Below, one piece after another: positions 23,044-61,744 of a DNA stretch of 64,000 bases (positions are counted from its first letter, which is position 1; every line of letters begins with the position of its first letter). The notes beneath the pieces were generated by a model. The model made no database searches. It was not told the DNA's origin and was given only the letters and a program-made list of their open reading frames with translations. The position numbers were made by a program, and so were the translations under genes. This DNA is from Herpetosiphonaceae bacterium (GTDB lineage: Bacteria > Chloroflexota > Chloroflexia > Chloroflexales > Kallotenuaceae), in contig DASUTC010000347.1 of assembly GCA_036374795.1 (NCBI GenBank), positions 62,001 to 126,000 on the forward strand, in the 5' to 3' direction.

Positions 23044-23247
23044 AGGGGTATTTTCGCAATGGAGCGGCACGCCGTCAAGCCGATATGCGGTACTCGGCTA
23101 GGGCGTGAACTACCGGTACGGTTGTAATTTGCCGCTACGTGCCGAAGTCATACTCGATCGGCTTGTAACGCTTTTGGCAGCAACCCTGTGTGGTGGCCTG
23201 ACCCTGAAAATCCAGAATATAAGGACGACATACATGTGCGACGGGAT

Positions 23248-25436: not shown

Positions 25437-26923
25437 TCGGCTCCCAGGACAGCACGACTGGCTACCAGTGCGGTTAAGGACAGGATACGATCAACCAAAA
25501 TGGGCGAATACAATTGTTTTCCGATCCATGTATCAGGCACCGGATCATCAATGTGTTGATCCAACCAGTGATGAGCTGGGGCAAGCATTGGTTGGATCAC
25601 AGCATCGAACCGCGGTTGAAGCACTAATAATGCCAGCATGGCAAAAGTGGTATCTGGTAGTTGAGATGATGTTGGTCCCCACCCGCCATCGGGGTGTTGC
25701 TGCCTCCGCAGCGCATGCATCGTCGAGTCGAGTGCCTGCTCTACCGCTTCCGATGGAGGTGCGAGGGACAGGGGTAACATCGCATGCCAGGCACTATACA
25801 GCCAGCTGACATTCCACTTATCGCGCGGCCAGGTGCCATCTGGAAGCTGACGGGTACACAACCGTCCAACCTCAACATCTATGTTATAGCCATCAATCGC
25901 TAATTGCTGCAGCATACGACCTTGCACCGAAATGGAGCCATGCATCTCCCCTGGATAAGCAGTGAACCCACTCGACATAAACGGCTGAAATATCTCTATG
26001 GCTTGTGGACCTTGCCGACCGGCCGCTCGCACAATTGCTACCGCGGCCGCGGTCGTATCGCCGTCGGTCTGAAAGGCATCACTCATACCAGTACCCCCCG
26101 CAGTACGGAGTCGTTGCAGGAGGTCGTCGACAATCGGTGCGATGAACAACTGTATTTCCGGCTGCTGAAGCAAGCCGAGCGTCGCGAGACCGTAGAGGCT
26201 AAACGTTTGTTCAAACCGAGAGATAGGCCATACGGTTGGGACAACCCCATAAATATGCACACCAGTCGCTGCTGCCGACTGGTGTATATATCTCAAGGCT
26301 CGGGTTCGTGCTCGCTCAAATGAGGGATGCTGCGCTCGGTGCAGCCACAAAGCGGTCGCTGAGGGACTGTGACCAATGCTGCCTGCTCCATCCAGCAGGT
26401 TCTCATCGGCATCTGCACCCCATATTTCCCAGGAGTGCAACGCAGGCGAACCTGCGGCGATCGCTTGCTGTTTGAGCCTCTCCATTCGCCGCCGACTAAA
26501 CTCCATTAATGCCTGATCGGCAAACGGGGGAACGTCCAGGTGGGCTACCCGCGCTTCGGCGACCAGATTCGGAATGATGATCTCGGCTGCAACCGAAAGA
26601 TCAGGCGGAAGCTCCCGTGGCCAGAGCTGATCGATCTCTTGAAGGAGCTTGAGCGCAGCGGCGATTTCGGGGGTGTGCGGATTGATTATCTGGAGGGCTA
26701 AGATAGCAGAGAGCGTCGGGATGATTCGATGGAGCGGTTCATGCGGGTCTCCCCATCCACCATCGGCATACTGTTGATCAAGGAGCCAGGAGATTGCGGG
26801 CTTGACATTGTGCCAGGTGGCAAAACGAATACACTGGGCAGTGTCATAGATGGATGGGGTTATAGCCCCATCCTGTCCAAGCTGCGTAAGAGCAGATAAC
26901 AGCCGTACAAGGGGGGTGTCCAC
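25433..26923 (-). CDS. Class II diterpene cyclase
   Basis: The 496-residue protein has the alpha-barrel style of terpene cyclases: QW-type motifs YADGGWGDP (52-60) and HPDGGWGP (late), and in the middle DGDTTA (287-292), a DxDTT variant of the DxDD motif that protonates GGPP in class II cyclases. The same variant type is reported for the Rv3377c group. The start is a GTG at 26923 with GCGAGG upstream. It should cyclise geranylgeranyl diphosphate to a bicyclic diphosphate (labdane, halimadane or clerodane skeleton). It overlaps the next gene by four bases and lies 53 bases after a sensor kinase gene on the same strand. Base composition is visibly more AT-rich than the flanking surface-protein genes. 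Confidence 0.82.
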   Translation of the reverse strand: MDTPLVRLLSALTQLGQDGAITPSIYDTAQCIRFATWHNVKPAISWLLDQQYADGGWGDPHEPLHRIIPTLSAILALQIINPHTPEIAAALKLLQEIDQLWPRELPPDLSVAAEIIIPNLVAEARVAHLDVPPFADQALMEFSRRRMERLKQQAIAAGSPALHSWEIWGADADENLLDGAGSIGHSPSATALWLHRAQHPSFERARTRALRYIHQSAAATGVHIYGVVPTVWPISRFEQTFSLYGLATLGLLQQPEIQLFIAPIVDDLLQRLRTAGGTGMSDAFQTDGDTTAAAVAIVRAAGRQGPQAIEIFQPFMSSGFTAYPGEMHGSISVQGRMLQQLAIDGYNIDVEVGRLCTRQLPDGTWPRDKWNVSWLYSAWHAMLPLSLAPPSEAVEQALDSTMHALRRQQHPDGGWGPTSSQLPDTTFAMLALLVLQPRFDAVIQPMLAPAHHWLDQHIDDPVPDTWIGKQLYSPILVDRILSLTALVASRAVLGAE

Positions 26924-26976: not shown

Positions 26977-28230
26977 CTATGGTAATGGTAAGAATATATT
27001 AACCCATGCGCCCCCTTTATTACTACCCCCATTATTACCAATTTTAACCGAGCCATGATGCCAAAGTACGATTGCTCGAAGCAGGTTCAGACCCAGCCCA
27101 CCTATCCCTTTGGCACTTGGCACAAGCATGCTGAGATCCCCACGTTCAGCACTATTAATTTGACGAATAACGGCGGGCGGAAATCCGGGGCCGTCGTCCT
27201 GGATGCAGAGCAGCACAGAATGACCGTCTACGGAGGTCGAGATTGATATATCGACCCTTGCTTTGCCACTACGACTGCCGGCTTCTATCGCATTACGTAC
27301 AACGGTGTCGAGTGCCATGAGCAAATATGCAGGTATGCAGCGAATGACTGCGTCTTCAGCGATTTCGTCACGAATCGTAACGGGTATTTGATATTGCCAA
27401 ACGCTGCTTTCCTTCACAAGATCAGAAATCAATCCACGCAGTGAAACAAGTTGGAATTCTTCAGGCAACTTACCTTGCGCAATAACTAGCAGATGCTGCA
27501 TCATCGTATCCAGACGTTGCGCTCGGCCTTCGAGTCCTCCAAGGACGACGCCATCCCAGGATTCCGTTAAATTCACGGAGCCGTCGGCGACACCCCGAGC
27601 GAGGGCGACCAAGCCACGGACCCCGTTCGCCTGAGCCTGCAGTTCATGTTGAAGGCTCCGGATCAGCATACGAAAATTGCGCTCTATTTGTAGTTGTTGC
27701 TCGGTATCAACAAGCCGGTTTGCGTCTTTCAAGGCACGTTCCAGAGAATGCATAATGATACCGACGATCAGCCCCGTCATCACTATGGTGAACAGCGCCG
27801 TGGACGAGTTGATTGTCCACATACTATAGGCGATCCCAAGTGACACAAACAGCACGACCGCAGTACCTAACAAAATCCAGATACCTCGCGCGCCGCCCGT
27901 AATACCGCCAATTGCAATGGCGATGATATACGTGGTGCCGAGCGGGGAATCCATCAGATCGGGGCCTGGGAGTGTCGAGATGCAATAAATTAAAGCCCCT
28001 GCAAGACCATACCCTCCTATCAGGAGCGACTTTTGATTGCGAGCGGTAAAGGCAACGATCGAAAAAATCATGAGGATGCAGCAATTCACCAGGTTAAGAC
28101 GAGTCATGAGTGGATTTAATAACACGATTGGCAGCGCGATTATTGATGCGATGCCGAGCATCAAGGCCGCCGTGCGTAGTAACCACAAACGTTCCCGCAT
28201 ATCCACAGGATGCTGAATACGAGCGTTCAC
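26977..28230 (-). CDS. Membrane sensor histidine kinase
   Basis: The 417-residue protein has about six N-terminal membrane segments (residues 15-175) with hardly any periplasmic loop, then a coiled helix and a kinase core. The phosphoacceptor His is in LIRSLQHELQ (about residue 195), the N box is VVRNAIEAG, and ATP-binding boxes are IQDDGPGFP and GIGGLGLNL. The GTG start at 28230 has GAGGAAC upstream. It sits directly before the diterpene genes on the same strand and is divergent from a response regulator 60 bases away, so it probably forms a pair with that regulator and may sense a membrane-related cue that controls the operon. Confidence 0.85.
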   Translation of the reverse strand: MNARIQHPVDMRERLWLLRTAALMLGIASIIALPIVLLNPLMTRLNLVNCCILMIFSIVAFTARNQKSLLIGGYGLAGALIYCISTLPGPDLMDSPLGTTYIIAIAIGGITGGARGIWILLGTAVVLFVSLGIAYSMWTINSSTALFTIVMTGLIVGIIMHSLERALKDANRLVDTEQQLQIERNFRMLIRSLQHELQAQANGVRGLVALARGVADGSVNLTESWDGVVLGGLEGRAQRLDTMMQHLLVIAQGKLPEEFQLVSLRGLISDLVKESSVWQYQIPVTIRDEIAEDAVIRCIPAYLLMALDTVVRNAIEAGSRSGKARVDISISTSVDGHSVLLCIQDDGPGFPPAVIRQINSAERGDLSMLVPSAKGIGGLGLNLLRAIVLWHHGSVKIGNNGGSNKGGAWVNIFLPLP

Positions 28231-28290
28231 TTAGTTCCTCGCTTTGTCCCGGCCCACTATACTATAGTCTAAGCATAGGGAGCCTACCGC

Positions 28291-29142
28291 ATGATAGACG
28301 GAACTCTAGATCTTTTGCTGATTGAAGACGATCCGATGGACGCTACAGTTCAAACGCTAATTCTTCGGTCAGTTGGCTGTCGAGTCTCCCTCGCCTCGTC
28401 GGTTGTGGAAGGCGAGGACCTGGCAATGGCGATGCTTGCCACAACGAACACGCAACCTGTCGGCATCGTCACAGATCTTAAGCTCCGCGACCTGATACTT
28501 TCGCGGATCGAAGGATCTGCACTTGCGGCTGTTCTTGCCGGTCGGATGCTGGACGGATTGATTCGTCCAGCACCAATCATTGCGATTACGAGTGACATGA
28601 CGGATGAACGACGCAACGAGGCGTTAAGTGCTGGGTGTACCCTCGTGCTTTCAAAACCGCTCCGTATTGATCAGGCATCCCAGATTTACGATCTTACGAT
28701 GCACTATACGACTCCAACCGTTGATCCAGTTCGTGCGCACGGCATCCAACTCCTACGCGGCTTTATGGAAAAAGTCCTAAGCAGCTTGCGGGAAAATCGC
28801 CCTCCAACGGTTTGGACAGCCGAGGCTATTTTCCAGATCCTATGTGCCGTGACCTCGTACTCCCCGCCCCGGACGGCGGCATTTGCTCTAGATCCGCACA
28901 AGCAAGCCGTGCTTGTGCGATCGATGGGAGGTTCCCAGCTTGCTAGGGAATTACTCGAAAGATACGCGCTGATGGCACGAGAAACTCCTGCTGGCCGAAT
29001 GATCGCGCTGTATTTGGAGGGCTATCCAACTAATCGAGTGATCCACATCCTGATTGATCGAGGATACGCCAAGAGCTACCTCTACCGCGTCAACGAGCAC
29101 TTGCCAGAATTGATTAGTAAATGGATCGCCGCTCAGATGTAA
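28291..29142 (+). CDS. Response regulator with unrecognised C-terminal output domain
   Basis: Residues 1-135 form a receiver with acidic pair in LLIEDDPMD, phosphoacceptor Asp in GIVTDLKLRD, Thr/Ser in AITSD and Lys in VLSKPLR. The receiver has a longer alpha-2/beta-3 region than usual. The remaining 145 residues are mostly helical and end with MIALYLEGYPTNRVIHILIDRGYAKSYLYR-like spacing (key motif NRVIHILIDRGY), which fits a helix-turn-helix output. It is divergent from the sensor kinase gene, with the 60-base gap holding TATACT and TATAGT boxes on opposite strands. Probably the transcription factor for the diterpene operon; that is inference. Confidence 0.75.
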   Translation: MIDGTLDLLLIEDDPMDATVQTLILRSVGCRVSLASSVVEGEDLAMAMLATTNTQPVGIVTDLKLRDLILSRIEGSALAAVLAGRMLDGLIRPAPIIAITSDMTDERRNEALSAGCTLVLSKPLRIDQASQIYDLTMHYTTPTVDPVRAHGIQLLRGFMEKVLSSLRENRPPTVWTAEAIFQILCAVTSYSPPRTAAFALDPHKQAVLVRSMGGSQLARELLERYALMARETPAGRMIALYLEGYPTNRVIHILIDRGYAKSYLYRVNEHLPELISKWIAAQM

Positions 29143-29302
29143 GCACGTAGCACCGTTCGGACTGAACGGAGCTTACGCTCCACGATACGCTATACCTGTC
29201 CCCTGCAACAATCCTCCAGCTAAATAGGGGACAAAAAGGGGACTTTTATAGACTGTATCAGGCGAATGCACTGTTAGACTACTGTGGCATGCGCCACTGG
29301 TA

Positions 29303-29346
29303 TATAATGTGCTGTATTTTACAGCGAACTTACTGTAAAATACAGC
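29303..29346 (+). promoter_or_regulatory. Promoter -10 box with palindromic operator of four half-sites
   Basis: TATAAT at 29303-29308 is followed directly by GCTGTATTTTACAG (29311-29324), an eight-base spacer and its perfect reverse complement at 29333-29346. Each 14-base arm is itself an inverted pair CTGTA-TTT-TACAG, giving four half-sites across the probable transcription start. The tandem ribbon-helix-helix protein encoded at 29394 is the obvious candidate to bind and autoregulate here. The 250 bases between 29142 and 29394 otherwise hold no gene. Confidence 0.7.
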
Positions 29347-29393
29347 ACGATTGCCCTGGATTACAGATTAGACAGTTAACGAGGGCAGACAGT

Positions 29394-29792
29394 ATGCGGA
29401 GAGAGTTTCAATTGACGGTTGATCGGCAACTCTACGATCGCGTAGCTGCTATTGGCCGGGATGACCATCGTAGCTCTGTTCCCGAACAGATGGTTGCCAT
29501 GCTGTCGAAGGCGGCTGCACAGTGGAGGAAGTTGGCGGTTCAGGCCGTCATAACGCCGCTACCTGCTCCAGTCGCCATCGAGTCAGTGCCGGTTCGCCTA
29601 AACTTTAGCCAAGAGGAGTTCCAACAGATCGAGCGCCTTGCCCGGCAAGATCGTCGATCTCCAACGAAACAAATTGTGTTTATGCTTGAGTTGGCGGTGG
29701 AACACTGGCCGGAGCTGTCAGGCCACAAGAAGTGGCCTGATCCACCGTTGACAGATATAAGACGAGCGCCTGCGATGGTTCCTACCGCATAA
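29394..29792 (+). CDS. Tandem ribbon-helix-helix DNA-binding protein
   Basis: GAGGG lies before the ATG at 29394; the longer frame from 29289 crosses the operator and is not used. The 132-residue protein contains two similar units: residues 1-45 (REFQLTVDRQLYDRVAAIG then EQMVAMLSKAAAQW) and 66-105 (VPVRLNFSQEEFQQIERLA then KQIVFMLELAVEHW). Each fits a strand followed by two helices of the Arc/MetJ ribbon-helix-helix fold. These proteins normally dimerise; here both halves are in one chain, so the monomer may act like a dimer. The four half-sites upstream fit two such molecules. Confidence 0.75.
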   Translation: MRREFQLTVDRQLYDRVAAIGRDDHRSSVPEQMVAMLSKAAAQWRKLAVQAVITPLPAPVAIESVPVRLNFSQEEFQQIERLARQDRRSPTKQIVFMLELAVEHWPELSGHKKWPDPPLTDIRRAPAMVPTA

Positions 29793-29860
29793 ATAGGATC
29801 TTAACCAACGCAGGCGCTCAGTGGTGCGTGATTTGTTTTAGGGAGCGAATCGCGCACCAC
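29764..29860 (+). other. Two nested/adjacent long inverted repeats at the gene end
   Basis: The first pairs 29764-29780 (GAGCGCCTGCGATGGTT) with 29803-29819, 17 bases with one mismatch, and straddles the stop codon of the ribbon-helix-helix gene; its loop contains CCTA and TAGG. The second pairs 29821-29833 (GTGGTGCGTGATT) with 29848-29860, one mismatch. There is no T tract. They may terminate transcription, or be a recombination or replication structure resembling an integron attC hairpin. Confidence 0.5.
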
Positions 29861-29926
29861 CACCCCCCGCTGGCATAAGAATCAACAGAGGTGGCGGATT
29901 CATTGTAGCATAACGATATTGACTTT

Positions 29927-29959
29927 TATCTACTTTGATATGCCGTATCAAGGTAGATA
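29927..29959. repeat. Isolated 14-bp inverted repeat
   Basis: TATCTACTTTGATA (29927-29940), five bases, then TATCAAGGTAGATA (29946-29959): one mismatch in 14. It lies in AT-rich non-coding DNA between convergent small genes and could bind a dimeric regulator. No gene starts immediately next to it. Confidence 0.5.
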
Positions 29960-29996
29960 GAGACGTTTCCTATTCTTAGCACACGGGACATACTCG

Positions 29997-30077
29997 CTAG
30001 ACGTGCTGATTGCTACACTGATGCCGAGCTACTGAAGATGCGATGTCATCTTCTTCCTCTTTGATCTGCGCCATCAT
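29997..30077 (-). CDS. Possible 26-residue acidic peptide
   Basis: GGGAG stands six bases before an ATGATG pair at 30077. The short product is acidic (KEEEDDIASSVARHQCSNQH). In the same frame upstream, residues EDDVASSYNATR resemble EDDIASSVARHQ, so the segment seems to have been duplicated, in DNA as well as in peptide sequence. A precursor peptide is conceivable, but no maturation enzyme is nearby. Coding status is uncertain. Confidence 0.3.
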   Translation of the reverse strand: MMAQIKEEEDDIASSVARHQCSNQHV

Positions 30078-30268
30078 TGATACTCCCTTTCGATTTAACC
30101 TAGTCGCATTGTAGGAAGATGCAACATCGTCCTCGATGTTCCCCCCTGATTCTGTTCCGGTATGGTGGGTGTTAGAAACCGCCCACATGCTTGGCAATTA
30201 TGAACAATTGCAACACGAATTGTTCAGCATACAGGCACTTCGCGCCAGGATATAGAAACGGGGAGTAC

Positions 30269-30760
30269 ATGGGAGCCCAGATTGTTGACTCACTCGCGCG
30301 TCTCAGGGTTGACGACCCTACCGATTCAACGACCCGGGTCGTTGTGCTTGAGGATCGAGCTGGTCCTGACGACGACGTTTTTAATACTCGGGTCGCTGAT
30401 GCAATGGCCGTTGCGCGCCTTCGCAGCAATGTGGCGAACGTCACGGCTCCTGCTCTTGATGATTGCGCTAGGGTTCTCCGCATCGTCGATGAGCTGAACA
30501 CCACAATCCACCTGGGTCGAATGGAGGTGGAGCTAGCACGTGTTCTGGAAGAAGCCTTTGCCCAAACGGCTGCCCGCTTGAACGACTTGGTTTGTGCGCT
30601 TAATCGTCTTGGACTCTTCCTCGTTCCGTCTGGCTCAGACCATTGGGGTTTTCGCTGGAACTTTGAGGGGGAGGTGAAAGGACCGTATCCTGACTTAATA
30701 GAGACTGTTATTGCTGCGTTTCAAGTCCCTGGTAGCTCGCCCAATATCAGGGATGCCTAA
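30269..30760 (+). CDS. Hypothetical protein upstream of the second initiator
   Basis: The ATG at 30269 follows GGGGAG closely; in-frame alternatives at 30191 (TTG) and 30200 would add a Cys/Asn-rich stretch unlike the rest. The 163-residue product is helical and acidic, with VRVDD- and VVLEDRAGPDDDVF-type loops and a C-terminal part rich in aromatics (SDHWGFRWNFEGE). No family is recognised. It reads toward the initiator gene at 30980, separated from it by a stem-loop and a palindrome. Confidence 0.6.
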   Translation: MGAQIVDSLARLRVDDPTDSTTRVVVLEDRAGPDDDVFNTRVADAMAVARLRSNVANVTAPALDDCARVLRIVDELNTTIHLGRMEVELARVLEEAFAQTAARLNDLVCALNRLGLFLVPSGSDHWGFRWNFEGEVKGPYPDLIETVIAAFQVPGSSPNIRDA

Positions 30761-30776
30761 CAAGTAAAAAATAGAG

Positions 30777-30806
30777 CAATGGCTCTGTGCGAGAACAGAG
30801 CCGTTG
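30777..30806. terminator. Stem-loop between two genes, possible terminator
   Basis: CAATGGCTCTGT pairs with ACAGAGCCGTTG around a six-base loop, one G-T wobble. On the plus strand no T tract follows; on the minus strand the hairpin is followed by a run of six T. It may act in either direction. Confidence 0.45.
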
Positions 30807-30824
30807 CCCCCCAATGATGGCCTT

Positions 30825-30845
30825 ATCATGTTGCTGCAACATGAT
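30825..30845. promoter_or_regulatory. Perfect palindrome upstream of the second initiator gene
   Basis: ATCATGTTGC and its exact reverse complement are separated by one base. It lies 135 bases before the start of the initiator-like gene and is a likely operator for copy-number control. The remaining 30846-30979 shows no gene; AAGGAG at 30964 is the ribosome-binding site. Confidence 0.55.
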
Positions 30846-30979
30846 GATAACAATCCGATCCAGGGCTGTCAATGGAGGGAATGCAAGAGGAGATCCTCCA
30901 TGTCGTATTTGTATGTACTCTCTTGCCGGGCGGAGCATGATCAGCAGCCCAGGAACCAATCACGGAAGGAGTCGCGGTA

Positions 30980-33166
30980 ATGCCTCCTTCTCCTGGCTTG
31001 TACCGTTCTGGGGACATCGGGGTTTCTGCCGAATGGCGAGCGATCAGCTATGACTGGCCGTTCGTATTAACGCCGCTAGGCGTGGCGATGTATGCCTACC
31101 TCCGCGATACCTATGAGCAGCAGCGGGCCATGTTCCCGTTACTGGTGAAGCCGGAGGGGCCGACAAAGCAACAGATGCAGCGAAAGCTGGGGAAACGCTC
31201 AGCGTGGGCGATCCAAGGGCCGGAATATCTCCTGCGCGTCACGGGATTGGCAGATGTTGTCGTGGACTACGGCCAAAGCTCCGATCCAGCGCATCCCCAG
31301 AGAACGCGAGTCGCCTACTACACGATTGGTCGTCTCGATCAACCTGTCCTTAATTGGGCCATGCTCAGTCACGTTCTCGATGCGTTGGTGATTGGCCTTG
31401 ATTCATCGTCCGGTCACGCTGATGATCAGAAGGCTCAGTCGGCAATCCAGGCGCTGAAGCAAGGAGGTTTTCTCCAGGAAGGAGAACCTGGGGATCTCTT
31501 CTGGGAACTTGGTGCCTGGCCGCATCTCCTGCCTGCCTTAATCAACGATCCCCGTTGGGAAGCGATCTACAGCTCACTGCACACAGCTGGTGCTATTCGT
31601 CCCTATCGTGAGCAAGCACGGCGCTGGGTGGAGTACGCGCTGCAGAAAGCGGCGCGGTTAGCCCACGAGAACCAGGCGATGGCCGACATGCTGCAAGCTG
31701 CGCAGCGACGCGGACCCCACGGCGCTCATCCCACCCGCCCAGCAGTTGACACGTCCCGTGTATCAGTTCCGTATCAGATTCCAGCGACACAAGCTCATCA
31801 AGTGACTTCCATAGCTTGTGTCGCTGACGAGTCGCTAGATTGTCGCGAAGCTGTTGAAGTCACTTCCATAGCTTCAGCGACTCTTCTTCGCGGATCGCAT
31901 AGCAATACGATCAATCCGCTATCAGATCATAGCGACTCGGAGTCGCTGGCGCGCGATCAATTAACGTTAACGAGTCTGTCTGTTAACAAGAGAGACTCCA
32001 GAGACTCCTTTTCTGGAGCGACATCACCTGGCGACAGCACGCTCAACATTCAGCCCCACATCCGCCAAGAGGAACTCCATACGACAAAGCTCGATACGGT
32101 GTTTTGGGCGACTGTTAATCAAATTCTCAACGGTACCTTGGGTCGCTACCCGCATTCGGCTGGAGAGAAAAAAGCCGCAGAGAGGCAATTTTCGCAGCGC
32201 AACATTCCATCAGGTGTCGCGCTGGCCGCCCTCCGCCTGGTTATGACGCTCCCGGTCGAGCTTCGTCCTCGTACCTTCGGGGAGGCCCTCAAGCTCGATA
32301 CATTCCAACGCGCTGTTCAGCAAGGATTGCTCTTGCTACCGGCACGACCACACGTTGCGCCAACGTGGGAATCGTTTCTCTGGACCTACCGAACGGTTGG
32401 CCTCACTGATCGGCTTCGAGACGTTGGGCACGCCGACTATATGGTTCTGCGTTCCCTCTATGAACGCAACCCGGACGAATGCTGGGAGGTCTTGAGTCGC
32501 TGCCAACATGCCCAGTCGCCAGCGAAACTTACGCCCCAATATCTGCGGAGAGCTATCGCCAATAACCAGCGCGCGGCGGCCGAACAGATCCTATCACCTG
32601 GATCAAGTCAGGAGTTGCGGCATCCAGTTGTGGTTGATCCACGGTATGCGTTACTCACTGCCGAAGGGCTGGCTGGTGTCGCGCTGTCGGACGACATCAC
32701 GGAGGAGTACATCCGAGCCTGGATCATGGAGGCTGATCATCGAGCGTCGGGTATCAAAACGCGACCTGGTTGGCTACGGTGGGGTATTCTCTCTGGCTAT
32801 TGGCCGCATGAGCATCCGCAACTTCCACCCCGGCCCGGACAGCCCGTGAGCATCCCACCTGCGCACGATCTGGCACAGATCCCTGATGCTCAGCCCGAGT
32901 CTGAATGGGCACGGCTCTGGGGGGATGTACTCATGCGCGTTCGGGACGCGGTATCTCCGAGCGACTATGCAACCTGGATTCAATCGACGCACCTTGTCGA
33001 TATGAGCGATGAGGTGCTGGTGATTGCCGTGCCACATGTGTTGGCACGGGACGGTCTACTTAGCACGCCCCAGTTGCTGCAGACCCTGACCGCGTGTGCA
33101 GCAGCGGTCATTCCAACCTGTACCGACATCACCATCGTGATTGATTCAGGGGTGCCATTATGCTAA
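30980..33166 (+). CDS. Second initiator-like protein with DnaA domain-I-like tail
   Basis: AAGGAG precedes the ATG at 30980. Of 728 residues, the first 250 look like a replication-initiator wing-helix region (TPLGVAMYAYLRD, KQQMQRKLGKRSAWAIQGPEY-type spacing). A low-complexity Ser/Thr-rich linker (about 270-365) and a helical middle follow. The last 90 residues (LWGDVLMRVRDAV, YATWIQSTHLV, LVIAVPHVLARDGL) fit DnaA domain I, as in the protein at 19007. The next gene overlaps its end by seven bases. It is probably the initiator of a second replicon; the iteron region at 18.2 kb is not adjacent, so its origin may lie nearby, for example around the palindromes at 29.3-30.8 kb. The initiator role is inferred. 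Confidence 0.65.
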   Translation: MPPSPGLYRSGDIGVSAEWRAISYDWPFVLTPLGVAMYAYLRDTYEQQRAMFPLLVKPEGPTKQQMQRKLGKRSAWAIQGPEYLLRVTGLADVVVDYGQSSDPAHPQRTRVAYYTIGRLDQPVLNWAMLSHVLDALVIGLDSSSGHADDQKAQSAIQALKQGGFLQEGEPGDLFWELGAWPHLLPALINDPRWEAIYSSLHTAGAIRPYREQARRWVEYALQKAARLAHENQAMADMLQAAQRRGPHGAHPTRPAVDTSRVSVPYQIPATQAHQVTSIACVADESLDCREAVEVTSIASATLLRGSHSNTINPLSDHSDSESLARDQLTLTSLSVNKRDSRDSFSGATSPGDSTLNIQPHIRQEELHTTKLDTVFWATVNQILNGTLGRYPHSAGEKKAAERQFSQRNIPSGVALAALRLVMTLPVELRPRTFGEALKLDTFQRAVQQGLLLLPARPHVAPTWESFLWTYRTVGLTDRLRDVGHADYMVLRSLYERNPDECWEVLSRCQHAQSPAKLTPQYLRRAIANNQRAAAEQILSPGSSQELRHPVVVDPRYALLTAEGLAGVALSDDITEEYIRAWIMEADHRASGIKTRPGWLRWGILSGYWPHEHPQLPPRPGQPVSIPPAHDLAQIPDAQPESEWARLWGDVLMRVRDAVSPSDYATWIQSTHLVDMSDEVLVIAVPHVLARDGLLSTPQLLQTLTACAAAVIPTCTDITIVIDSGVPLC

Positions 33167-33750
33167 CCCTCCCCGTCGATAGCCTCCTGGACCAAGCGGA
33201 AATCATCGCCGATCGGGAGCGCGATCCTGCCCGAGCGGCAATGGACCTCGCTCGACAAATCTTGGATCTGAAGGACGTCGTGGTGATTGCCACCACGACG
33301 TCAGGACCGCGGGGAGAATTGATTGAGTTTGCTGCGCTGGCCAGTGACGGTTCCATCCTGTTTCACACACTGATCCGGCCTCAGTCGTCGATCTCAGCGC
33401 GTGCGACCGCTCTTCATGGTCTGACGGATGCGGACGTGGAGGATGCGCCCCATCTCGCGCAGGTCTGGACCTCCATTACGACCGTGCTCACCGACCGTCC
33501 GGTCGCCGGCTACCAGATTGTGGTGTCGCAGCGCGACCTGCGACGGTGTGCAGACCAACTCGCAGTTCCCTATCGGGACAGCCACTGGCTGTCGATTGCC
33601 GATCTGTATGCTCGCTATGCCCAGCGAACCCAGTGGTGCTCGCTGACGACGGCCTGCGCCAATCTCGGCATTGACACGCTTCCACGAGGAGCATTGAAGC
33701 AGTCCCGCGCCTGCCTGGCCCTCTTAAGAGGCATGGCTGAGCGGGTGTGA
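33160..33750 (+). CDS. Catalytically degraded DnaQ-like 3'-5' exonuclease
   Basis: The 196-residue protein aligns by pattern with DEDDh exonucleases: strand one VVVIATTTSG (40-49), the HGLTDADVEDAP helix (86-97), AGYQIVVSQRDL (117-127) and a C-terminal WLSIADLYARY and LKQSRACLALL. However, the catalytic positions are gone: Exo I normally reads D-x-E-TTG and here A44 and T46 stand in place of Asp and Glu; Exo II normally has HN..FD and here has QIVVS; Exo III lacks the His and Asp. It should not cleave DNA. Its ATG lies inside the end of the initiator gene (seven-base overlap), so the two are made together and may form a complex. Confidence 0.7.
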   Translation: MLTLPVDSLLDQAEIIADRERDPARAAMDLARQILDLKDVVVIATTTSGPRGELIEFAALASDGSILFHTLIRPQSSISARATALHGLTDADVEDAPHLAQVWTSITTVLTDRPVAGYQIVVSQRDLRRCADQLAVPYRDSHWLSIADLYARYAQRTQWCSLTTACANLGIDTLPRGALKQSRACLALLRGMAERV

Positions 33751-33911
33751 TCCTGCCACTGAGCGCACCTTGGACACAGACGACCAGCAGCGTATTCGAG
33801 CGCGACCTGCAGCAGCAGGTCCTCATACGACATCGTTCTAGCTTTGCTATTAGCCTGCTTTCGCGGTGATGGGCTGCGCGAGCAACCAGTTTCAATCAGA
33901 CGGAGCCGACC

Positions 33912-34742
33912 ATGACCACCCTATTTCCTGCAGACGCAGCCGTCTCCCTCTTCGAGGAAACACCGTGGAGACCGGGTCTCCTTCAGGCGTTTCTTGCCGC
34001 GATGGAAGGGGGATTCCTGATTGTCGATCCAAGCAGCCAGGCGGTGTGCAACAAACGGTTTTTAGAGATCTGGAACATCCCTCCGGCGCTCGCAGGGAAC
34101 TGCCCGTCCATGCTGCGGCATATCGTCGACCAGCTGGTCGATCCCGATCAGTTCGAGCACCAGTTGCACGCAGTCAGCAGCGATCCAACGACCATCGTTC
34201 GTGATGAAGTTGTCCTGAACGATGGTCGCGTGATCGCCCGGTGTTCCCAGCCAAGCAGGGACGGGCGGGGCGACCCGTACCGGGTCTGGTTTTTTTATGA
34301 TGTGACCCATCAAAAGCAGGCAGCAGAACGGCTTCGGCAGCAACAAGCGCAAATTATTCAGCAGCAACAAGCGGCATTGGCGGAGCTGTCAACGCCGCTT
34401 ATTCCCATTTCCGATGATGTTCTCGTGATGCCACTCATCGGCGCAGTTGATACGAATCGCGCTCAGCAGATCCTCGAAACGCTCCTCGAAGGCGTGAGTC
34501 AGCGGCGGCCACGCGTCGTGATCCTTGACATCACCGGCGTCGCAATCGTTGACACGCAAGTCGCCAACGCCCTCGTGCAGGCCGCGCAAGCGGTACAGCT
34601 GTTGGGTTCCCAGGTCAGACTCACCGGCATCCGACCCAATATCGCGGAAACGCTGGTCACACTAGGGGTGTCGTTCCGGGGGATTACCACCCACGGAACA
34701 CTGCAGGACGCTATTTCCGCTACCCTCGCAGCGGGTAGATAA
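33912..34742 (+). CDS. PAS-STAS protein (RsbR-like stressosome type)
   Basis: The 276-residue protein has an N-terminal PAS-like sensor domain (about 20-135, with AMEGGFLIVDPSSQAVCNKRF-type start; key motif GGFLIVD), a Gln-rich coiled helix (about 140-155) and a C-terminal STAS domain (about 160-270). The STAS core VVILDITGVAIVDTQVANAL keeps the Thr and Asp-Thr positions that are phosphorylated in RsbR. RsbR proteins build stressosomes with RsbS and RsbT, but neither is encoded next to it. It may join a chromosomal complex. The ATG at 33912 has only a weak CGGAG upstream. Confidence 0.8.
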   Translation: MTTLFPADAAVSLFEETPWRPGLLQAFLAAMEGGFLIVDPSSQAVCNKRFLEIWNIPPALAGNCPSMLRHIVDQLVDPDQFEHQLHAVSSDPTTIVRDEVVLNDGRVIARCSQPSRDGRGDPYRVWFFYDVTHQKQAAERLRQQQAQIIQQQQAALAELSTPLIPISDDVLVMPLIGAVDTNRAQQILETLLEGVSQRRPRVVILDITGVAIVDTQVANALVQAAQAVQLLGSQVRLTGIRPNIAETLVTLGVSFRGITTHGTLQDAISATLAAGR

Positions 34743-34809
34743 GCTTGTTTTATTGACCCTATGCCACGGCTCGGTCCAACCAGATCGAGTTCACAACCCA
34801 GGATACGCC

Positions 34810-35352
34810 ATGAGTACGTTAAGCGGCACACCCAATCAGAACGGTACGTTACCCGCCCCCCATCATGCCCTCCCATTAACGCACGCCGATCAGGTGGTCT
34901 ATAGCGAGGCGGCACAACGCGCCACCACAAGCGGCGATGATCTCGTTGCGCGCGCGTTGGACCACGCATCGCGTGGTGGGAGCGCGATCGTGGATCTGTT
35001 ACGGCAAATGAATACGCAGCTGGAGAGCGGAGACGTCGACGCGGTCGCCGCCCGGGTGCGCGCCCTGCTCCAACCAATTGATGATCTTGATCGTAACGAA
35101 CCGATTCTTACCACGGCGGTCGCGGACTTGGCAGGGCCCGTCCAAACCTTCTTGGATCGGTACCCAGGGTACCAGCTGCCCGCCGTCCTCTTGACCGATG
35201 ACGCCGCGCTCGCCGCGCTCGACGAGCAGCTGCTCGCGATCGAAGACCAAGTCCAGGAAGTGCGCCGGCGTGTCGAAGAGCGGCGGCGCCTGCTCGCAGG
35301 ACGTGATCTCGCCGGCACGGGTATCCCCAGTGCCGCGCTGTCAGGACGGTAG
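34810..35352 (+). CDS. Hypothetical coiled-coil protein
   Basis: The 180-residue product starts at the ATG at 34810; no strong ribosome-binding site is seen. The N-terminal 40 residues are polar and Pro/His-rich. The rest is helical, ending with a clear coiled coil (LDEQLLAIEDQVQEVRRRVE) and an Arg-rich segment. No signal peptide or known domain is visible. It lies 67 bases after the PAS-STAS gene and 13 bases before the C25-like peptidase gene, so it may be part of either unit. Confidence 0.65.
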   Translation: MSTLSGTPNQNGTLPAPHHALPLTHADQVVYSEAAQRATTSGDDLVARALDHASRGGSAIVDLLRQMNTQLESGDVDAVAARVRALLQPIDDLDRNEPILTTAVADLAGPVQTFLDRYPGYQLPAVLLTDDAALAALDEQLLAIEDQVQEVRRRVEERRRLLAGRDLAGTGIPSAALSGR

Positions 35353-35365
35353 CAGGAGCGTGCAG

Positions 35366-37474
35366 ATGCGGCAGAGTTTCTGGATTCTTCTTTTCATCAT
35401 CCTCGCCACATCCGGCCTCGCGCCATCGGCGATCGCAGACGCAGGATTCGCGTCGAATCCGCTGATCGACCGTGCCGGTGCCCTGCGTATCCAGGTGCTG
35501 CAGTCGGGCCTCCAGCAGCTTAATGGCGCGCAGCTGCAGGCGGCTGGATGGGATCTCAGCACGGTTAATCCTCGCACGATTCAGCTGTGGCGGACGGGCC
35601 AGGAGGTGCCGATCGATCTGAACGGAGTCGCCGATGGGCGGCTCGATCCGTCGGATACGATCCGGTTTGTCAGCCCACGCACAACCAGCCGCTGGAGCAC
35701 CGTCGCCACGTATTGGCTGGCCTCGGACACGGTAGATGGGCTGCGCGGCACCCCACAGCTTGCGCCGGGCGATCCCATCCGCTGGGAAGAGGATGCGCTG
35801 TACCAGACGCGCTGGCCATCGCTGAACGGCGACCGCTGGTATGGGCGGGAGTTGGTCAGCGTCCCGGAACGGGATCGGACCAGGATCGACCTGTCCCTCC
35901 CCGTCTCCGCGCCGGCTGGCACGCGCCTGCAGCTGGCCGTCGTCGGCACGACGCCGCAGCCCCATACGCTGACCCTGGCCGCAAATGGTCGCGCGCTCGA
36001 CCCGCTGCGTTGGAGCGGCACCGCGCCGTATCTTGGCAGCGTACTCCTCCCGTTCACGGTCCTGCCGGGTGTCCTCCAGCTTGACGTCACGCTAGCAGGT
36101 AGCCAGGCAGATCGGGTGCTGCTGGACTGGGTGGCGCTGCCGGACGTGCGCCCGGCCTATCCCGCGACACCCACCACGCCGCGCGTCGAGCGTGGTCCCG
36201 GGTTCGATCCGACCTTCGGACCCGCGCCCGGTCAGCCTGGCGCGACCTTTCTCATCATTACGCACGCGTCGCTGCGCCCGGCCCTCGATCCGCTGATTGC
36301 GGCACACCGGCAGCGCGGCGACACGGTCGGCGTGGTCGACGTGCAGACGGCCTATGATGCCTGGTCCTGGGGCGATCGCACTCCTGAGGCGATTCGGAGC
36401 CTGATTCGGACCGCCGTCACGCAGTGGCAGCCGGCTCCCCGCGCGATCTTGCTGGTTGGTGCGGGCACGGTCCGGATGCGGGTGGAGCCCGGTGCCACTG
36501 ACCCCACCCTGATCCCCCCGTATCTGGTTGCGGCCGACCCGATCCGCGGCGAGATCGCCTGCGATACCTGTTACACCCGCCTGGACGCGGCTGATCCACT
36601 CCAGGATCTGCTGCCCAATCTGCCGATTGGCCGGTTTCCGGCGCGCACGCTCGCCGAAGCCCAGACCCTGGTGCGGAAAACCGTCACCGCGCTCACCGCC
36701 CCGCCCAGCGGCGCGTGGCAGACCCGCGCGCTGCTGCTGACCGACAACGATCGCGAGCCGGATGGCCGGGTCGATCCCGCCGGGAGCTTTGTGGCAACGG
36801 CGGAGACGATGATGTCCGTGCTGCCGCGCGGGATACACGGCGAGCGGTTCTACTTTGCGCCGGATCGCCCAACTGGGCAGGGCTTCTACCAGGAGGCCGC
36901 GGAGCTGCGCTGCCGCCTGTTCCGGGCCCTGGATGGCGGTTCGCCGCATGACCGTGCCTGCCCGCCGCTCGCCGTTGGCACCGAGCCCGGCGCGGCGCTC
37001 TGGATCTATGTCGGGCACGGCTCACCCTGGCAGTGGGCGGCGACAACGCCCACCTCGCCGACGCCCTATCTGTGGTACCTCTATGACGCCGACGCACGGA
37101 CGAACGGGGCGCGTCTGCCGATCCTGCTCAGCCTGACCTGTCTCAGCGGCGACTGGGCCAACCCGACCCTGATGACCACGGATGAACGGATGGTTCTGCA
37201 CACGCAGGGTGGCGCCATCGCCAGCCTGTCGGCCACCGGCGAAGGGGTGAATACGGCGCATACCGATCTCGCCCGCGGCGTGCTTCCGACGCTCTTCGCC
37301 ACCCATGGCGATCGGACGCTGGGCGCGGCGCATCTCGCCGGACTGCGCCGCGTGGTGGCCAGCGGGACGCACGTTGAGTTGGCGTTTAGTTTTGGCATTC
37401 TGGGCGATCCGGACGTGGCGCTGCCGTTTGTGCCGACCTCGACCGCCTGGGTGCCGCTGGTGGGGCGCTCATGA
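35366..37474 (+). CDS. Secreted C25 (gingipain-like) cysteine peptidase
   Basis: The ATG at 35366, just after AGCAGGAGCG, opens with a signal peptide (about residues 1-25). The N-terminal region (LRIQVLQSGLQQLNG, RTIQLWRTGQEVPI) resembles the propeptide-like domain before gingipain-type catalytic domains. The catalytic His is H551 in YVGHGSPWQW and Cys C592 in LSLTCLSGDW, the clan CD order. The 702-residue length is normal for the family. It ends without a known sorting domain. Its stop overlaps the next start by four bases. Substrate preference cannot be inferred. Confidence 0.8.
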   Translation: MRQSFWILLFIILATSGLAPSAIADAGFASNPLIDRAGALRIQVLQSGLQQLNGAQLQAAGWDLSTVNPRTIQLWRTGQEVPIDLNGVADGRLDPSDTIRFVSPRTTSRWSTVATYWLASDTVDGLRGTPQLAPGDPIRWEEDALYQTRWPSLNGDRWYGRELVSVPERDRTRIDLSLPVSAPAGTRLQLAVVGTTPQPHTLTLAANGRALDPLRWSGTAPYLGSVLLPFTVLPGVLQLDVTLAGSQADRVLLDWVALPDVRPAYPATPTTPRVERGPGFDPTFGPAPGQPGATFLIITHASLRPALDPLIAAHRQRGDTVGVVDVQTAYDAWSWGDRTPEAIRSLIRTAVTQWQPAPRAILLVGAGTVRMRVEPGATDPTLIPPYLVAADPIRGEIACDTCYTRLDAADPLQDLLPNLPIGRFPARTLAEAQTLVRKTVTALTAPPSGAWQTRALLLTDNDREPDGRVDPAGSFVATAETMMSVLPRGIHGERFYFAPDRPTGQGFYQEAAELRCRLFRALDGGSPHDRACPPLAVGTEPGAALWIYVGHGSPWQWAATTPTSPTPYLWYLYDADARTNGARLPILLSLTCLSGDWANPTLMTTDERMVLHTQGGAIASLSATGEGVNTAHTDLARGVLPTLFATHGDRTLGAAHLAGLRRVVASGTHVELAFSFGILGDPDVALPFVPTSTAWVPLVGRS

Positions 37475-38184
37475 CCCTGTATGCATGCGACCAGATGCCG
37501 GTGCGTGAGTACCGACCCAGCGTCTCCGTGTCGCTGATCTCGACGACGGACTGTCGTCGTTCGCTGATCTGCCGCCTGGCGGAGGGCGGCATTGGCTGCC
37601 ATGTCCTCCTGCTCCAGTGCGATCACGAGGACGCGCCACCACCGCCCGGGACGCGCGTGCTGCCACCGATCCAGGGGCCGCTGCTCCTGGATACCCGGGG
37701 CTTGCGTCCGGTCATGCAAATCACGGTGCTCCATGAGCTGACTACGCGGTATCCGCACGTGCCCACGTTGATCCTGACCCGGCCAACCGATTGGTTGCTG
37801 CACCGCCTGGCGGCGAGCTGTCCGGCAGTCTATGCCGTGGCATCGGACCACGTCAGTCCGGGAGAGTTGGGGCTGTGGCTGCAGCACTGTGGCATCGTTG
37901 GTCCCGCCCGTGCGCCGCACGTCCGGCCTGCATATGTGGGCGTGGCCGCCCCGTCGTTTACGGTGGTCGATCCCAGGTTCCTGGCGATCCTGGTTGCCCT
38001 GGCGCAGGCCCCGAGCATTGAGCTGGCGGCCGCGAGCTCACCGCTGCCGGGGCGCACGTTCTATCGGAAACTGCGCCAGTTGCGGATGACCGTAAACGTG
38101 CCGGCCCGGATGTATCGGGGCCGGGCGTCCGCGCTGCTGCAGTCCCTGTTGGACGCCCTGGCAGCGCCAGCGGCGCACGGGTAG
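37471..38184 (+). CDS. Degenerate receiver-like protein
   Basis: The start ATGA at 37471 overlaps the peptidase stop. The 237-residue protein alternates hydrophobic strands and helices as in a receiver (SLISTTDCRR, HVLLLQCD, LILTRPTDW, AVYAVASDHVS), but the acidic pair, phosphoacceptor Asp and Lys are not conserved. The C-terminal 70 residues (FLAILVALAQAPSIEL then TFYRKLRQLRMTV) look like a helix-turn-helix. It may be a phosphorylation-independent regulator. No family is assigned with confidence. Confidence 0.55.
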   Translation: MTLYACDQMPVREYRPSVSVSLISTTDCRRSLICRLAEGGIGCHVLLLQCDHEDAPPPPGTRVLPPIQGPLLLDTRGLRPVMQITVLHELTTRYPHVPTLILTRPTDWLLHRLAASCPAVYAVASDHVSPGELGLWLQHCGIVGPARAPHVRPAYVGVAAPSFTVVDPRFLAILVALAQAPSIELAAASSPLPGRTFYRKLRQLRMTVNVPARMYRGRASALLQSLLDALAAPAAHG

Positions 38185-38318
38185 GTCCCAGAACGGACCC
38201 GATCCCCGGCATCGGTGCCACCCCCGACCGGTGATCCGGCGCCCTCCCGTTCGGCCTGCCTGGGACGCATCCTCGGCACGCGGTCACGCCGCGCTGCTCC
38301 TCACCAGCGCGCGCCTAT

Positions 38319-38407
38319 CCCCCAACAGTCCCGCTCAGCGGATAGGCCATCATCGGCTCATCTTGGCAGATAACCGGCACCGCACGCCGCGATTTGTTCG
38401 CTATCCT
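38319..38407 (+). promoter_or_regulatory. Repeated promoter-like element, copy B
   Basis: The blocks lie at 38319 (CCCCCAACAGTCCCGCTC), 38363 (TTGGCAGATAA) and 38402 (TATCCTG), with the same spacing as copies A and C. The first block is enclosed by the perfect eight-base inverted repeat GCCTATCC / GGATAGGC. The next start, GTG at 38438, is 30 bases downstream of the TATCCT box. Confidence 0.75.
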
Positions 38408-38437
38408 GACAGGAGAGCGCTATCGAAGGGGGCGAAC

Positions 38438-58974: not shown

Positions 58975-59388
58975 ATGCCCTACACCCATCAGGAAGAACT
59001 GAATGCCCGCGGCCAGAGCCGGCAGCTCGGCATCTTCACCACCGCCAACGCCGCGGGCGCGGGCGTGCTCGGCCTGGTTGTCTGGCAGCTGACCCGCATG
59101 CTCGGCGTCACGGGCGATTTCTGGGACGCGCGCTTCTGGGTCCAGGCCGCGCTGGTGCTGGCCGGCGCTGCCCTGGGCGTCGCCGTGACCTTCCGCTGGA
59201 GCGGGCTGTCGCTGCTGGACCGGCTGCTGCTCTGGATCGGCTTTCAGCAGCGCCGCCTGGCCCGCCACACCCGGCTCCGCCCCCAGGCGGCGGTGGTCGG
59301 CGACGCCGACGGCGGCATGCCGGCGGTGTACCGGGACGGCGAGGTGCTGCTGCGCCCGTATCGTCCGGAGGAGGACGCCGATGCCTGA
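58975..59388 (+). CDS. PrgI/VirB3-like membrane protein
   Basis: GAGAGGA precedes the ATG at 58975. The 137-residue product has two membrane helices (about 25-45 and 60-80) with short basic ends, the layout of VirB3 or PrgI-family proteins, which always precede VirB4. Its end overlaps the VirB4-like gene by eight bases, which supports tight coupling. It would anchor the ATPase to the membrane. Confidence 0.7.
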   Translation: MPYTHQEELNARGQSRQLGIFTTANAAGAGVLGLVVWQLTRMLGVTGDFWDARFWVQAALVLAGAALGVAVTFRWSGLSLLDRLLLWIGFQQRRLARHTRLRPQAAVVGDADGGMPAVYRDGEVLLRPYRPEEDADA

Positions 59389-61744
59389 GCCGGTGGTGTT
59401 CGCGGTCCAGTCCTTCGACCAGGGCATGCGCGAGGACGAATGGTCGCTCGACGAGCAGTGGACCCCGTTTTTCGCCGGCCAGGAAGGCCCCCTGCGGATC
59501 ATCTCGATGACGCGGCGCTTCGACCTGCGCGCGCCCCAGGAGCGGATCGACGCACGGCTGCAGCCGCTGGACCTCCGCGCCAAACGCCTGGCGCCGATCG
59601 CGCAGCTGGTCGGGCGCTGGGAGGGGCCGACGACGCCGACGAGCCTGGAGCAGGCGGTCGCCGCGCTGCCCGGCCCTGTGCGGCAGGATCTGGAGGAGGC
59701 GCTCGGCGGGCGCTCCCCGCAGGAGCGCGCGACCTGGGAACAGGCGCTGGACCGGCTGGGCCAGCCGCTGAGCTGGCGGCGCTGGCTCAAAGACTACCAC
59801 CAGCTGTATGACCTGCTGATGCACCAGGTCGCGCTGCGGGGCCTCCACCACTATCTGCTGGCCTGGCTGCCGGAGGGCATGCGCCCCGACGACCAGGCCG
59901 ATCTGGTCGCCCACGCCTTCGATACGGCGGTACAGGTCGCCGATCTGCCCCCGCTGCTGCCGGGCGAGTATACCGAGCAGGCGCAGTGGTTGGAGCCGGT
60001 CGAGCTGCACCACCCGTTTGTGGCGCTGCTGTGCAGCTATGACCTGGCCGGCACCTGGGATGTGCGGACCCTGCACCGCCTGCTCGGCCTCGACCTGGAC
60101 CTCGCCATCTGCGTCGACAGCGCCCCGGTCTCCCGCCTGAAAAGCGAATGGCAGGCGGAACATACCGCCGCCGTGACCGAGAACACGCTCATGCGCGAGG
60201 GCACGCGCGATCATAAGGTGCTGAAGCGCTACCGCGCCGCGAAGGAGATCCAGGAGCTGCTCGACACCCAGCAGCTGCATGATGTGCGGATCGTCGTCGC
60301 CGTGCAGGGCCGGGATCTCGACGAACTGCAGCACCACGTCCGCCAGGTGATCGCCGCGGGCGGCTCGCGCCTGAAGCTGCTCCGCCCGCCGTATGGGCAG
60401 GGGCCGCTGCTCCAGTTCTTCGGTCCCACGCCGACCAACCGGATCGAGTCGGTGGCCCGGCCGCGGCGCATCCCCAGCCAGGGCGTGGCGGTGACGGTGC
60501 CGTTCGGGCTGCGCAAGCCGGATCGGACCGACGGCATCCTGTGGCTGCTCCAGGGCGATACCCCGATCCTGTTCGATCCGTTCCCGCCGGGTCGAGCGGG
60601 GCATACGGTGATCCTGGGCAAGCCAGGGTATGGCAAGACCTTTAGCTTGAATACCTGGTCCACCCGGCTGGCGGCGCTCGGCTGCCAGGTCGTGGTCTAC
60701 GAGCCGCAGGGCCACTCCCGGCGCCTGGTGGAAGCGGCCGGGCGCTGTGGGGCGCGCTACGTGCTGGATCTGCGGCAGCAGGTCAACGTGCTGGATGTGG
60801 TGGCGACCCGCGACGCGCAGGGCCGGCCGCCGTCGCTCGGCGAGCAGATCGCGCACGTGACGGCGCAACTCAGCGTGCTGCTCGGCACCAGCCGCCCCGG
60901 TGGCGATGGCAAGGTCGTCTTTCTGGCCCGGGAGTGGACGAGCCTGGAGCGGGGCATCCTGGATCTCGCGCTGCAGCAGCTCTACGCGGACGTGGACCTG
61001 GAAACGGTGACGGTGGCGGAGACGCCGATCCTGGGCGACCTGTGCGACGCGCTCGCGACGGTGGCGGAGCAGCTGCGAGCGGAAGGGGAAGGGGAAGGGG
61101 CGACGATTGCGCAGCGGGTGGTGACCGAGATCAATCTACGGCTGGTGCGCGGCTCGCTGGGCGCGACCTTCAACGCGCACACGACGGTGGACTGGAACGT
61201 TACCCACGATGTGACCGCGTATGACTTCAGCGCGATCCCCGACGGCGAGTTGCGGACGTTCTTCTACGGGCAGGCATTCGCGGCGCTGAACCGGGTAATC
61301 CGCTCGCCGCTGCGCGACCGGTCCCGCCCCCTGGTCGCGGCGATCGACGAGTTCCAGTACATGCGCCGGGTGCCCTGGCTGGCGACGTTCGCGGCGGAAG
61401 CCACGAAGACCTGGCGGACGTTCAATGGGCATTTCTGGACCATCGATCAGGATGCGCATACGTATCTGGGTGCCGAAGGCGGGGTGGCGGACGAGGCGAT
61501 GCTGTCGATCTTCCAGAACGCGACGATCAAGATCATCTTCCGGCAGGATGCCGAGCCGGCCAAGCGGCTGGGGCATGTGGTCGATGGGCTGCGCGTGGCG
61601 CATATGCAGCAGATCAAGCAGCTCGGCCAGGGGGAATGTGTGCTGGTCTGGGAGGCGGATGATGACGCCCATCGCCAGAACGAGGTGTTTGTGGGCCGGG
61701 TCGAGCCGACGGATGCCGAGCTGCGGGTGTTTACCGGCACGTAG
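59381..61744 (+). CDS. VirB4/TraC-like conjugation ATPase
   Basis: The 787-residue protein has an N-terminal domain (1-390) and a motor domain with Walker A GKPGYGKT (413-420) and Walker B LVAAIDEFQYM (Asp656), followed by the sensor region IDQDAHTYLG and Gln-rich FQNATIKIIFRQD. This is the conserved energy source of type IV secretion. The start overlaps the PrgI-like gene by eight bases. It is the last gene of the operon visible; no VirB11, VirD4 or relaxase gene follows within the window. The FtsK-like protein at 12506 is the only coupling-protein candidate here. Confidence 0.88.
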   Translation: MPEPVVFAVQSFDQGMREDEWSLDEQWTPFFAGQEGPLRIISMTRRFDLRAPQERIDARLQPLDLRAKRLAPIAQLVGRWEGPTTPTSLEQAVAALPGPVRQDLEEALGGRSPQERATWEQALDRLGQPLSWRRWLKDYHQLYDLLMHQVALRGLHHYLLAWLPEGMRPDDQADLVAHAFDTAVQVADLPPLLPGEYTEQAQWLEPVELHHPFVALLCSYDLAGTWDVRTLHRLLGLDLDLAICVDSAPVSRLKSEWQAEHTAAVTENTLMREGTRDHKVLKRYRAAKEIQELLDTQQLHDVRIVVAVQGRDLDELQHHVRQVIAAGGSRLKLLRPPYGQGPLLQFFGPTPTNRIESVARPRRIPSQGVAVTVPFGLRKPDRTDGILWLLQGDTPILFDPFPPGRAGHTVILGKPGYGKTFSLNTWSTRLAALGCQVVVYEPQGHSRRLVEAAGRCGARYVLDLRQQVNVLDVVATRDAQGRPPSLGEQIAHVTAQLSVLLGTSRPGGDGKVVFLAREWTSLERGILDLALQQLYADVDLETVTVAETPILGDLCDALATVAEQLRAEGEGEGATIAQRVVTEINLRLVRGSLGATFNAHTTVDWNVTHDVTAYDFSAIPDGELRTFFYGQAFAALNRVIRSPLRDRSRPLVAAIDEFQYMRRVPWLATFAAEATKTWRTFNGHFWTIDQDAHTYLGAEGGVADEAMLSIFQNATIKIIFRQDAEPAKRLGHVVDGLRVAHMQQIKQLGQGECVLVWEADDDAHRQNEVFVGRVEPTDAELRVFTGT

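Follow-up and report, generated by a model that had tools for sequence, protein, structure and literature searches.

What use could a replicon have for the fold of a proofreading exonuclease in a protein that can no longer proofread? The question is made testable by a locus in the window, by which we mean the whole 64-kb stretch analysed (G000:C347:62001-126000, from the 7.75-Mb draft genome of a Chloroflexota bacterium). The first-pass annotation had described here a DnaQ-like exonuclease, stripped of its catalytic residues, whose gene starts inside that of a putative replication initiator, and had proposed a structural role for it, perhaps in binding single strands or the polymerase clamp at the origin. 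The features of the locus are collected in Table 1.

Table 1. Features of the DnaQ-like locus and its surroundings (window coordinates)
Feature	Position	Strand	Basis and remarks
Receiver-like gene, 283 aa, first conserved gene of the module	28291..29142	+	Response_reg E 5.7e-7, slightly below cut-off; relatives in the same place in 3/3 other cassettes
Replication-initiator-like gene, 728 aa	30980..33166	+	Sole Pfam match is a C-terminal DnaA_N
Iteron-like GTCGCT/AGCGAC cluster (31704, 31783, 31820, 31831, 31876, 31931, 31942, 32017)	31704..32022	+	Inside initiator gene; repeat count
A+T-rich stretch with GTTAAC next to the cluster, possible unwinding site	31956..31990	+	Sequence
DnaA_N domain, initiator residues 645-691	32912..33052	+	PF11638 E 3.2e-6, exceeds cut-off
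Shine-Dalgarno-like AGGGG, 7 nt ahead of the DnaQ-like ATG	33148..33152	+	Sequence
Catalytically dead DnaQ-like protein, 196 aa	33160..33750	+	ORF list, Pfam, alignment, structure model
Exo I codons (Asp to A44, Glu to T46)	33289..33297	+	Alignment to intact relatives
Exo II codon (Asp to S123)	33526..33528	+	Alignment to intact relatives
Exo III codons (His to R176, Asp to Q181)	33685..33702	+	Alignment to intact relatives
PAS-STAS protein, between DnaQ-like and helical-protein genes	33912..34742	+	STAS E 3.1e-17
Helical-protein gene, start uncertain (ATG at 34810), last of the co-diverging module	34753..35352	+	Cassette comparison, dN
C25 peptidase gene, true start probably near 35366, past the module boundary	35198..37474	+	Peptidase_C25 E 5.6e-68
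Regulator-like gene accompanying the C25 gene	37471..38184	+	Cassette comparison
VirB4-like conjugation ATPase, conjugation context downstream	59381..61744	+	NCBIfam NF045971 E 5.7e-17, under cut-off

The DnaQ-like gene does begin within the initiator gene, the two overlapping by 7 nt (33160-33166), and no sigma-70-like promoter site was found between them in a search of 32500-34500. No RNA family reached its gathering score within 28000-38500. The encoded protein matches Pfam RNase_T over residues 49-174 (E 1.6e-9, exceeding the cut-off) and PHROG 192, 'DNA polymerase exonuclease subunit' (9.8e-16). Both segments named earlier as fold-defining, HGLTDADVEDAP and WLSIADLY, are retained, and the alignment to intact relatives bears out the catalytic loss at Exo I, Exo II and Exo III: all five residues of the DEDDh set (D, E, D, H, D) are replaced.

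A structure prediction superposed on DnaQ, the check suggested with the annotation, was run with AlphaFold2 on the protein and 21 rows from related loci (alignment A5); as these rows are DnaQ relatives, the input itself favours a DnaQ fold. The model (mean pLDDT 91.3, pTM 0.84) has as its best structural matches in the PDB the exonuclease domains of E. coli Pol III epsilon (Z 21.2, rmsd 1.9 A over 157 residues), and Foldseek matched it to a Streptococcus DnaQ domain at E 5.9e-9. The protein is thus predicted to have the DnaQ/epsilon (DnaQ/RNase H-like) fold. A regular-expression scan with canonical clamp-binding patterns found no such motif in this protein or in its three paralogs described below, and the suggested binding of the clamp is not supported.

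The same arrangement occurs three more times in the genome, at 12.1-15.0 kb of the same contig (C347b) and on contigs C56 and C184, which gives four cassettes on three contigs. Their common gene order is receiver-like, initiator, DnaQ-like, helical protein, C25 peptidase and regulator. The PAS-STAS gene is confined to the window copy, no relative being found in the other three cassettes at E 1e-4. In blastp searches from the window cassette at that same limit, the initiator, receiver-like, C25 and regulator proteins matched in all three others, and the DnaQ-like and helical proteins in two; the C184 copies of the latter pair fall under the limit but are present in place, the C184 DnaQ-like protein being 82% identical to that of C56. 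The C25 peptidase of the window is about 72% identical to its three counterparts.

The four DnaQ-like copies have intact open frames at 34-82% identity and form one clade (support 96/93) in a tree built without the catalytic columns. Viral contigs yielded no close relatives of this dead clade. All four copies overlap the initiator gene, the overlap being 7 nt long in the window copy and 4 nt, of the ATGA type, in each of the other three. At Exo I the sequences are IATTT, LATEV, LATEP and LATEA, so that the change from Asp to Ala is common to all four. To the earlier question whether the same residues are lost in every homolog the answer is divided: the three other copies retain Glu at Exo I and Asp at Exo II and are not fully dead; their Exo III pairs are PD, HE and HE. 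They have also lost a portion of the fold, the PIPxxATxxHGITD segment, and none reaches the RNase_T model at E 0.05. A C-terminal FWRYL tail, possibly an interaction peptide, is common to these three and absent from the window copy.

The agreement of the four copies rules out a sequencing error or a single pseudogene. Open frames, overlapping starts and the Exo I Ala on three contigs indicate that the degenerate gene is more than a product of chance. No homolog with intact residues in the same coupled context, and no evidence of sequencing error, was found. The coupling was found only in the four copies of one genome, so that it is not widely conserved. Among 400 genomes drawn from the phylum, searched at E <= 1e-10, the initiator matched in its own genome only.

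The upstream gene is probably a replication initiator. Its DnaA_N domain is not accompanied by an AAA+ core, a C-terminal DNA-binding domain or RepA_N in Pfam searches at E up to 1, and a single-sequence structure of the N-terminal 260 aa was too poor for use (pLDDT 40). The central, linker-coding part of the gene carries the iteron-like cluster. The hexamer GTCGCT/AGCGAC occurs 11 times in the window gene, where 1.9 copies are expected, and 16, 18 and 15 times in the C347b, C56 and C184 genes (expected values for the four, 1.9 to 4.0). In none of 1000 synonymous-codon shuffles, which preserve the protein sequence, was the total or the local density as high in any of the four genes. When the 206.5-kb contig was ranked by 400-nt intervals, the highest repeat densities fell on its two initiator genes, C347b first and the window gene second. 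GTTAACG repeats adjoin the cluster in C56 and C184 as well. These internal repeats may act as the origin.

The cluster is present in all four initiator genes that have a dead DnaQ-like gene. Among the seven initiator relatives compared, three (C36, G001 and G004) have no DnaQ-like gene downstream, so initiators of this kind can do without the DnaQ-like protein. C36 and G001 lack the GTCGCT/AGCGAC cluster and have instead 11 and 9 copies of CAGNGACA (mostly CAGGGACA; 0/500 shuffles as high), of which the window gene has just 2; G004 has neither cluster. Genes that we take from their sequences to be ParA/ParB-like adjoin relatives of the initiator. No initiator relatives were found in PLSDB plasmids and phages at the limits used, nor in viral contigs. 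With its internal repeats and DnaA_N tail, the protein looks like a little-described type of plasmid initiator.

The carrier contig encodes ParA, ParB_N, Replic_Relax, TraG-like and VirB4-like proteins and ends without terminal overlap; its GC skew does not clearly mark an origin at the initiator. A second DnaA_N protein (18944-20251, 435 aa, E 7.8e-11), encoded near ParA, has an N-terminal match to O-like replication-initiation PHROGs, and its gene contains two 19-nt direct repeats (19506 and 19529, 23 nt apart) that include CAGATCTG. Together with the two cassette initiators, it brings the contig to at least three initiator-like genes. Several other loci were observed on the contig. A protein with a PHAX RNA-binding domain (22339-23070, E 2.3e-17), a domain named for a eukaryotic RNA-export adapter, is encoded next to a ParA gene. 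Genes for a cytochrome P450, a 286-aa protein without a Pfam match and a squalene-hopene-cyclase-like protein (23248-26923) likely form a terpene gene cluster. Outside the window lie a pPIWI_RE defence island with domains Y, REase and Z across two neighbouring genes (L033, G000:C347:181241-188920), and a TGT-domain gene with a weak DpdA match adjoining a DEAD-box helicase gene (L024, G000:C347:3143-6573), possibly a DNA-modification system.

Divergence among the cassettes indicates with which genes the DnaQ-like gene belongs. Between the window copy and the others, dN is 0.64-0.96 for the receiver-like, initiator, DnaQ-like and helical genes (the C184 helical gene being excluded), as against 0.18-0.34 for the C25 and regulator genes. 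The first four genes thus share a history unlike that of the last two, the boundary lying between the helical-protein and C25 genes; the DnaQ-like gene accordingly goes together with the initiator gene, and its product belongs to the replication module. The DnaQ-like gene has a pairwise dN/dS of 0.39-0.55 across the six cassette pairs, and the initiator gene one of 0.37-0.40. For two DnaQ-like pairs the 95% bootstrap limits, 0.28-0.73 and 0.25-0.58, both exclude 1, so that selection on the gene is purifying. Values in the cassette clade exceed those of the other lineages, dead or intact, and selection may therefore be partly relaxed.

To place the protein in its family, a profile of 15 relatives (A4) was run against 82 genomes from the order and 400 from the phylum. 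Among the matches listed, 83 domains were sampled, including four weaker chromosomal rows as outgroup; at E <= about 6e-22 the sample lacks three rows listed in the phylum search (G371:C2:281522, G280:C851 and G070:C138), and most weaker rows also lie outside it. After a fragment (G003_C249) was dropped, 82 of these listed matches were scored, with 53 intact (DEDHD) and 29 degenerate, a share biased upward since the profile included dead members. On a tree of these domains without the catalytic columns, explaining the degenerate label takes 9 changes (8-9 across bootstraps, with 4 forced by the starred branches). Removal of two doubtful rows, G299_C801 (frame cut short) and G036_C117 (only Asp to Glu), leaves 27 of 80 listed matches degenerate, with 7 changes. 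By stricter definitions and among the same 80, the Exo I Asp is replaced by a non-acid in 16, and at least three of the five catalytic residues are lost in 22, with 6 changes in either case. Parsimony changes give no proof of direction; catalytic loss is far likelier than regain. Clear separate losses beside an intact sister are those of G021/G006 against G018 (support 100/99) and of the G350 group against G311/G377 (100/98).

Outside the cassettes, dN/dS is 0.07-0.32 for dead pairs and 0.09-0.27 for intact pairs (five of six pairs estimable in each), so that the dead lineages tested are as constrained as intact ones. Some dead members have replication neighbours: in G073 (L204) the gene overlaps one for ParA and is followed by a Replic_Relax gene whose match falls slightly short of its cut-off, and in G437 (L203) it follows a DnaB helicase gene after two intervening genes. 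G021:C2 corresponds to plasmid pHAU01 of Herpetosiphon aurantiacus DSM 785 (CP000876.1; 99.7%), on which the dead gene is Haur_5104, with C25 peptidase and VirB4-like genes nearby. Among the members inspected by eye, those dead ones on multi-megabase contigs showed no replication neighbours. Intact members also occur near replication genes, G437:C932 after ParA/ParB-like genes and G038/G047 near a DnaB-like gene (names by sequence look).

Three further observations concern the family and its neighbours. The gingipain-type C25 peptidase gene accompanies all four cassettes and is also found on pHAU01 (L211), there beside conjugation genes. A dead clade of 12 rows (L185, L186, L188-L197) occurs in large Chloroflexota genomes in several copies per genome; in one part of it the Exo I acids have traded places, D and E becoming E and D, and in the other they have become H and T. 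Finally, two further genomes of the order encode dead DnaQ-like proteins whose N-terminal part is rich in cysteine and resembles a zinc finger (L087 and L081, 67% mutual identity).

The dead exonuclease is real, is conserved within its element family and is part of a replication module. As to its function, we give about even chances to its being a non-catalytic pseudo-exonuclease of DnaQ fold, kept as a subunit or adaptor of a plasmid-type replication module. Of what was first proposed, clamp binding is not supported and binding of single strands would be a candidate activity; a retained, non-catalytic role tied to the initiator is supported by the Exo I loss and overlap in all four copies, by purifying selection, by divergence in parallel with the initiator but not C25, and by the internal iteron-like cluster. 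Dead copies of replication enzymes often prove to be adaptors. In the mechanism that we envisage, the initiator would bind the iterons within its own gene, and its C-terminal DnaA_N would recruit the replicative helicase. The overlap of the genes would match production of the DnaQ-fold protein to that of the initiator. At the opened origin this protein would serve as a non-catalytic adaptor, most likely tethering the initiator complex either to single strands of DNA or to the host polymerase as it arrives. The two proteins would presumably touch each other.

An accessory exonuclease that lost its function in an ancestor could instead be eroding here, its frame open for as long as it is coupled to its neighbours. 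The raised dN/dS of the cassette copies relative to other members, the segment missing from three of them and the initiator relatives that manage without the gene would all suit such decay. We nevertheless consider it unlikely, since all four frames stay open at such divergence, the limits on dN/dS exclude 1 in both pairs tested, the fold residues are retained, and other dead lineages are selected as strongly as intact ones. A negative regulator is improbable to a further degree: the dead protein would compete with host DnaQ/epsilon or sequester the initiator, and so limit copy number or set the incompatibility of co-resident elements. Such a role accords with the presence of several related modules in one genome, two of them on one contig, with replication-module genes that diverge much faster than those for the peptidase and the regulator, a pattern to be expected where specificities have to differ, and with the divergence of the DnaQ-like protein alongside the initiator; the overlap and coupling, however, fit a partner just as well as an inhibitor. 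That the protein cuts by means of other residues, through an active-site switch of the kind proposed for Maelstrom, a DnaQ-fold family (PMC2628886), is very improbable, because, although the polar H69 and D95, possible metal ligands, belong to the 38 alignment columns that do not vary among the four copies, the five usual catalytic residues are all gone from the window protein, two scattered conserved residues make no site, and D95 lies within a stretch (xAP) common to intact relatives.

If the protein is indeed a non-catalytic adaptor, such a pseudo-proofreader would be an initiation accessory of a new kind. The cutting site was lost more than once, with 6 to 7 changes among the 80 listed relatives depending on the strictness of the definition, and repeated loss under maintained selection points to a second, non-cutting job. 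More generally, and only tentatively, Chloroflexota plasmid-type replicons may have repeatedly converted a carried DnaQ proofreader to a non-catalytic replication subunit, which in this genome would have become a dedicated, translationally coupled partner of an initiator with the origin inside its own gene; we lean somewhat against this wider statement.

Among the papers listed by searches of the open PMC library, which has few subscription papers, none dealt in its title or the start of its abstract with a dead DnaQ that stands alone and is linked to the initiator of a plasmid; nor did any paper there bring together Chloroflexota, DnaQ and exonuclease. The protein resembles the exonuclease domain of Pol III epsilon in its predicted fold and RNase_T match, and differs from it in the five replaced catalytic residues and in the clamp-binding motif, which was not found. 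A DnaQ-like fold retained in evolution despite a disrupted active site is likewise found in pExoDinG (PMC11981726), in the inactivated DnaQ-like domains of Pol I, PolB2 and PolA2 (PMC12926913) and in Maelstrom (PMC2628886); in Pol III alpha subunits it is the PHP domain that is inactivated, not a DnaQ proofreader (PMC12926913). These pseudo-exonucleases are domains of larger proteins or eukaryotic, whereas here a stand-alone gene overlaps that of a plasmid-type initiator. ImuA and ImuB, catalytically inactive relatives of RecA and of a Y-family polymerase (PMC3919608), are likewise dead replication or repair enzymes retained in a multigene cassette, but have other folds and act in a mutagenic process. 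The initiator shares DnaA_N with DnaA, whose AAA+ core and C-terminal DNA-binding domain are not matched in it. Its layout is similar to that of RepA_N initiators such as pSK41 Rep, where the origin repeats (Rep boxes) lie centrally in rep and encode the linker between the N-terminal part and the host-contacting C-terminal domain (PMC5703833). Unlike those initiators, it has no RepA_N domain, its C-terminal domain is DnaA_N, and the overlapping DnaQ-like gene is an addition.
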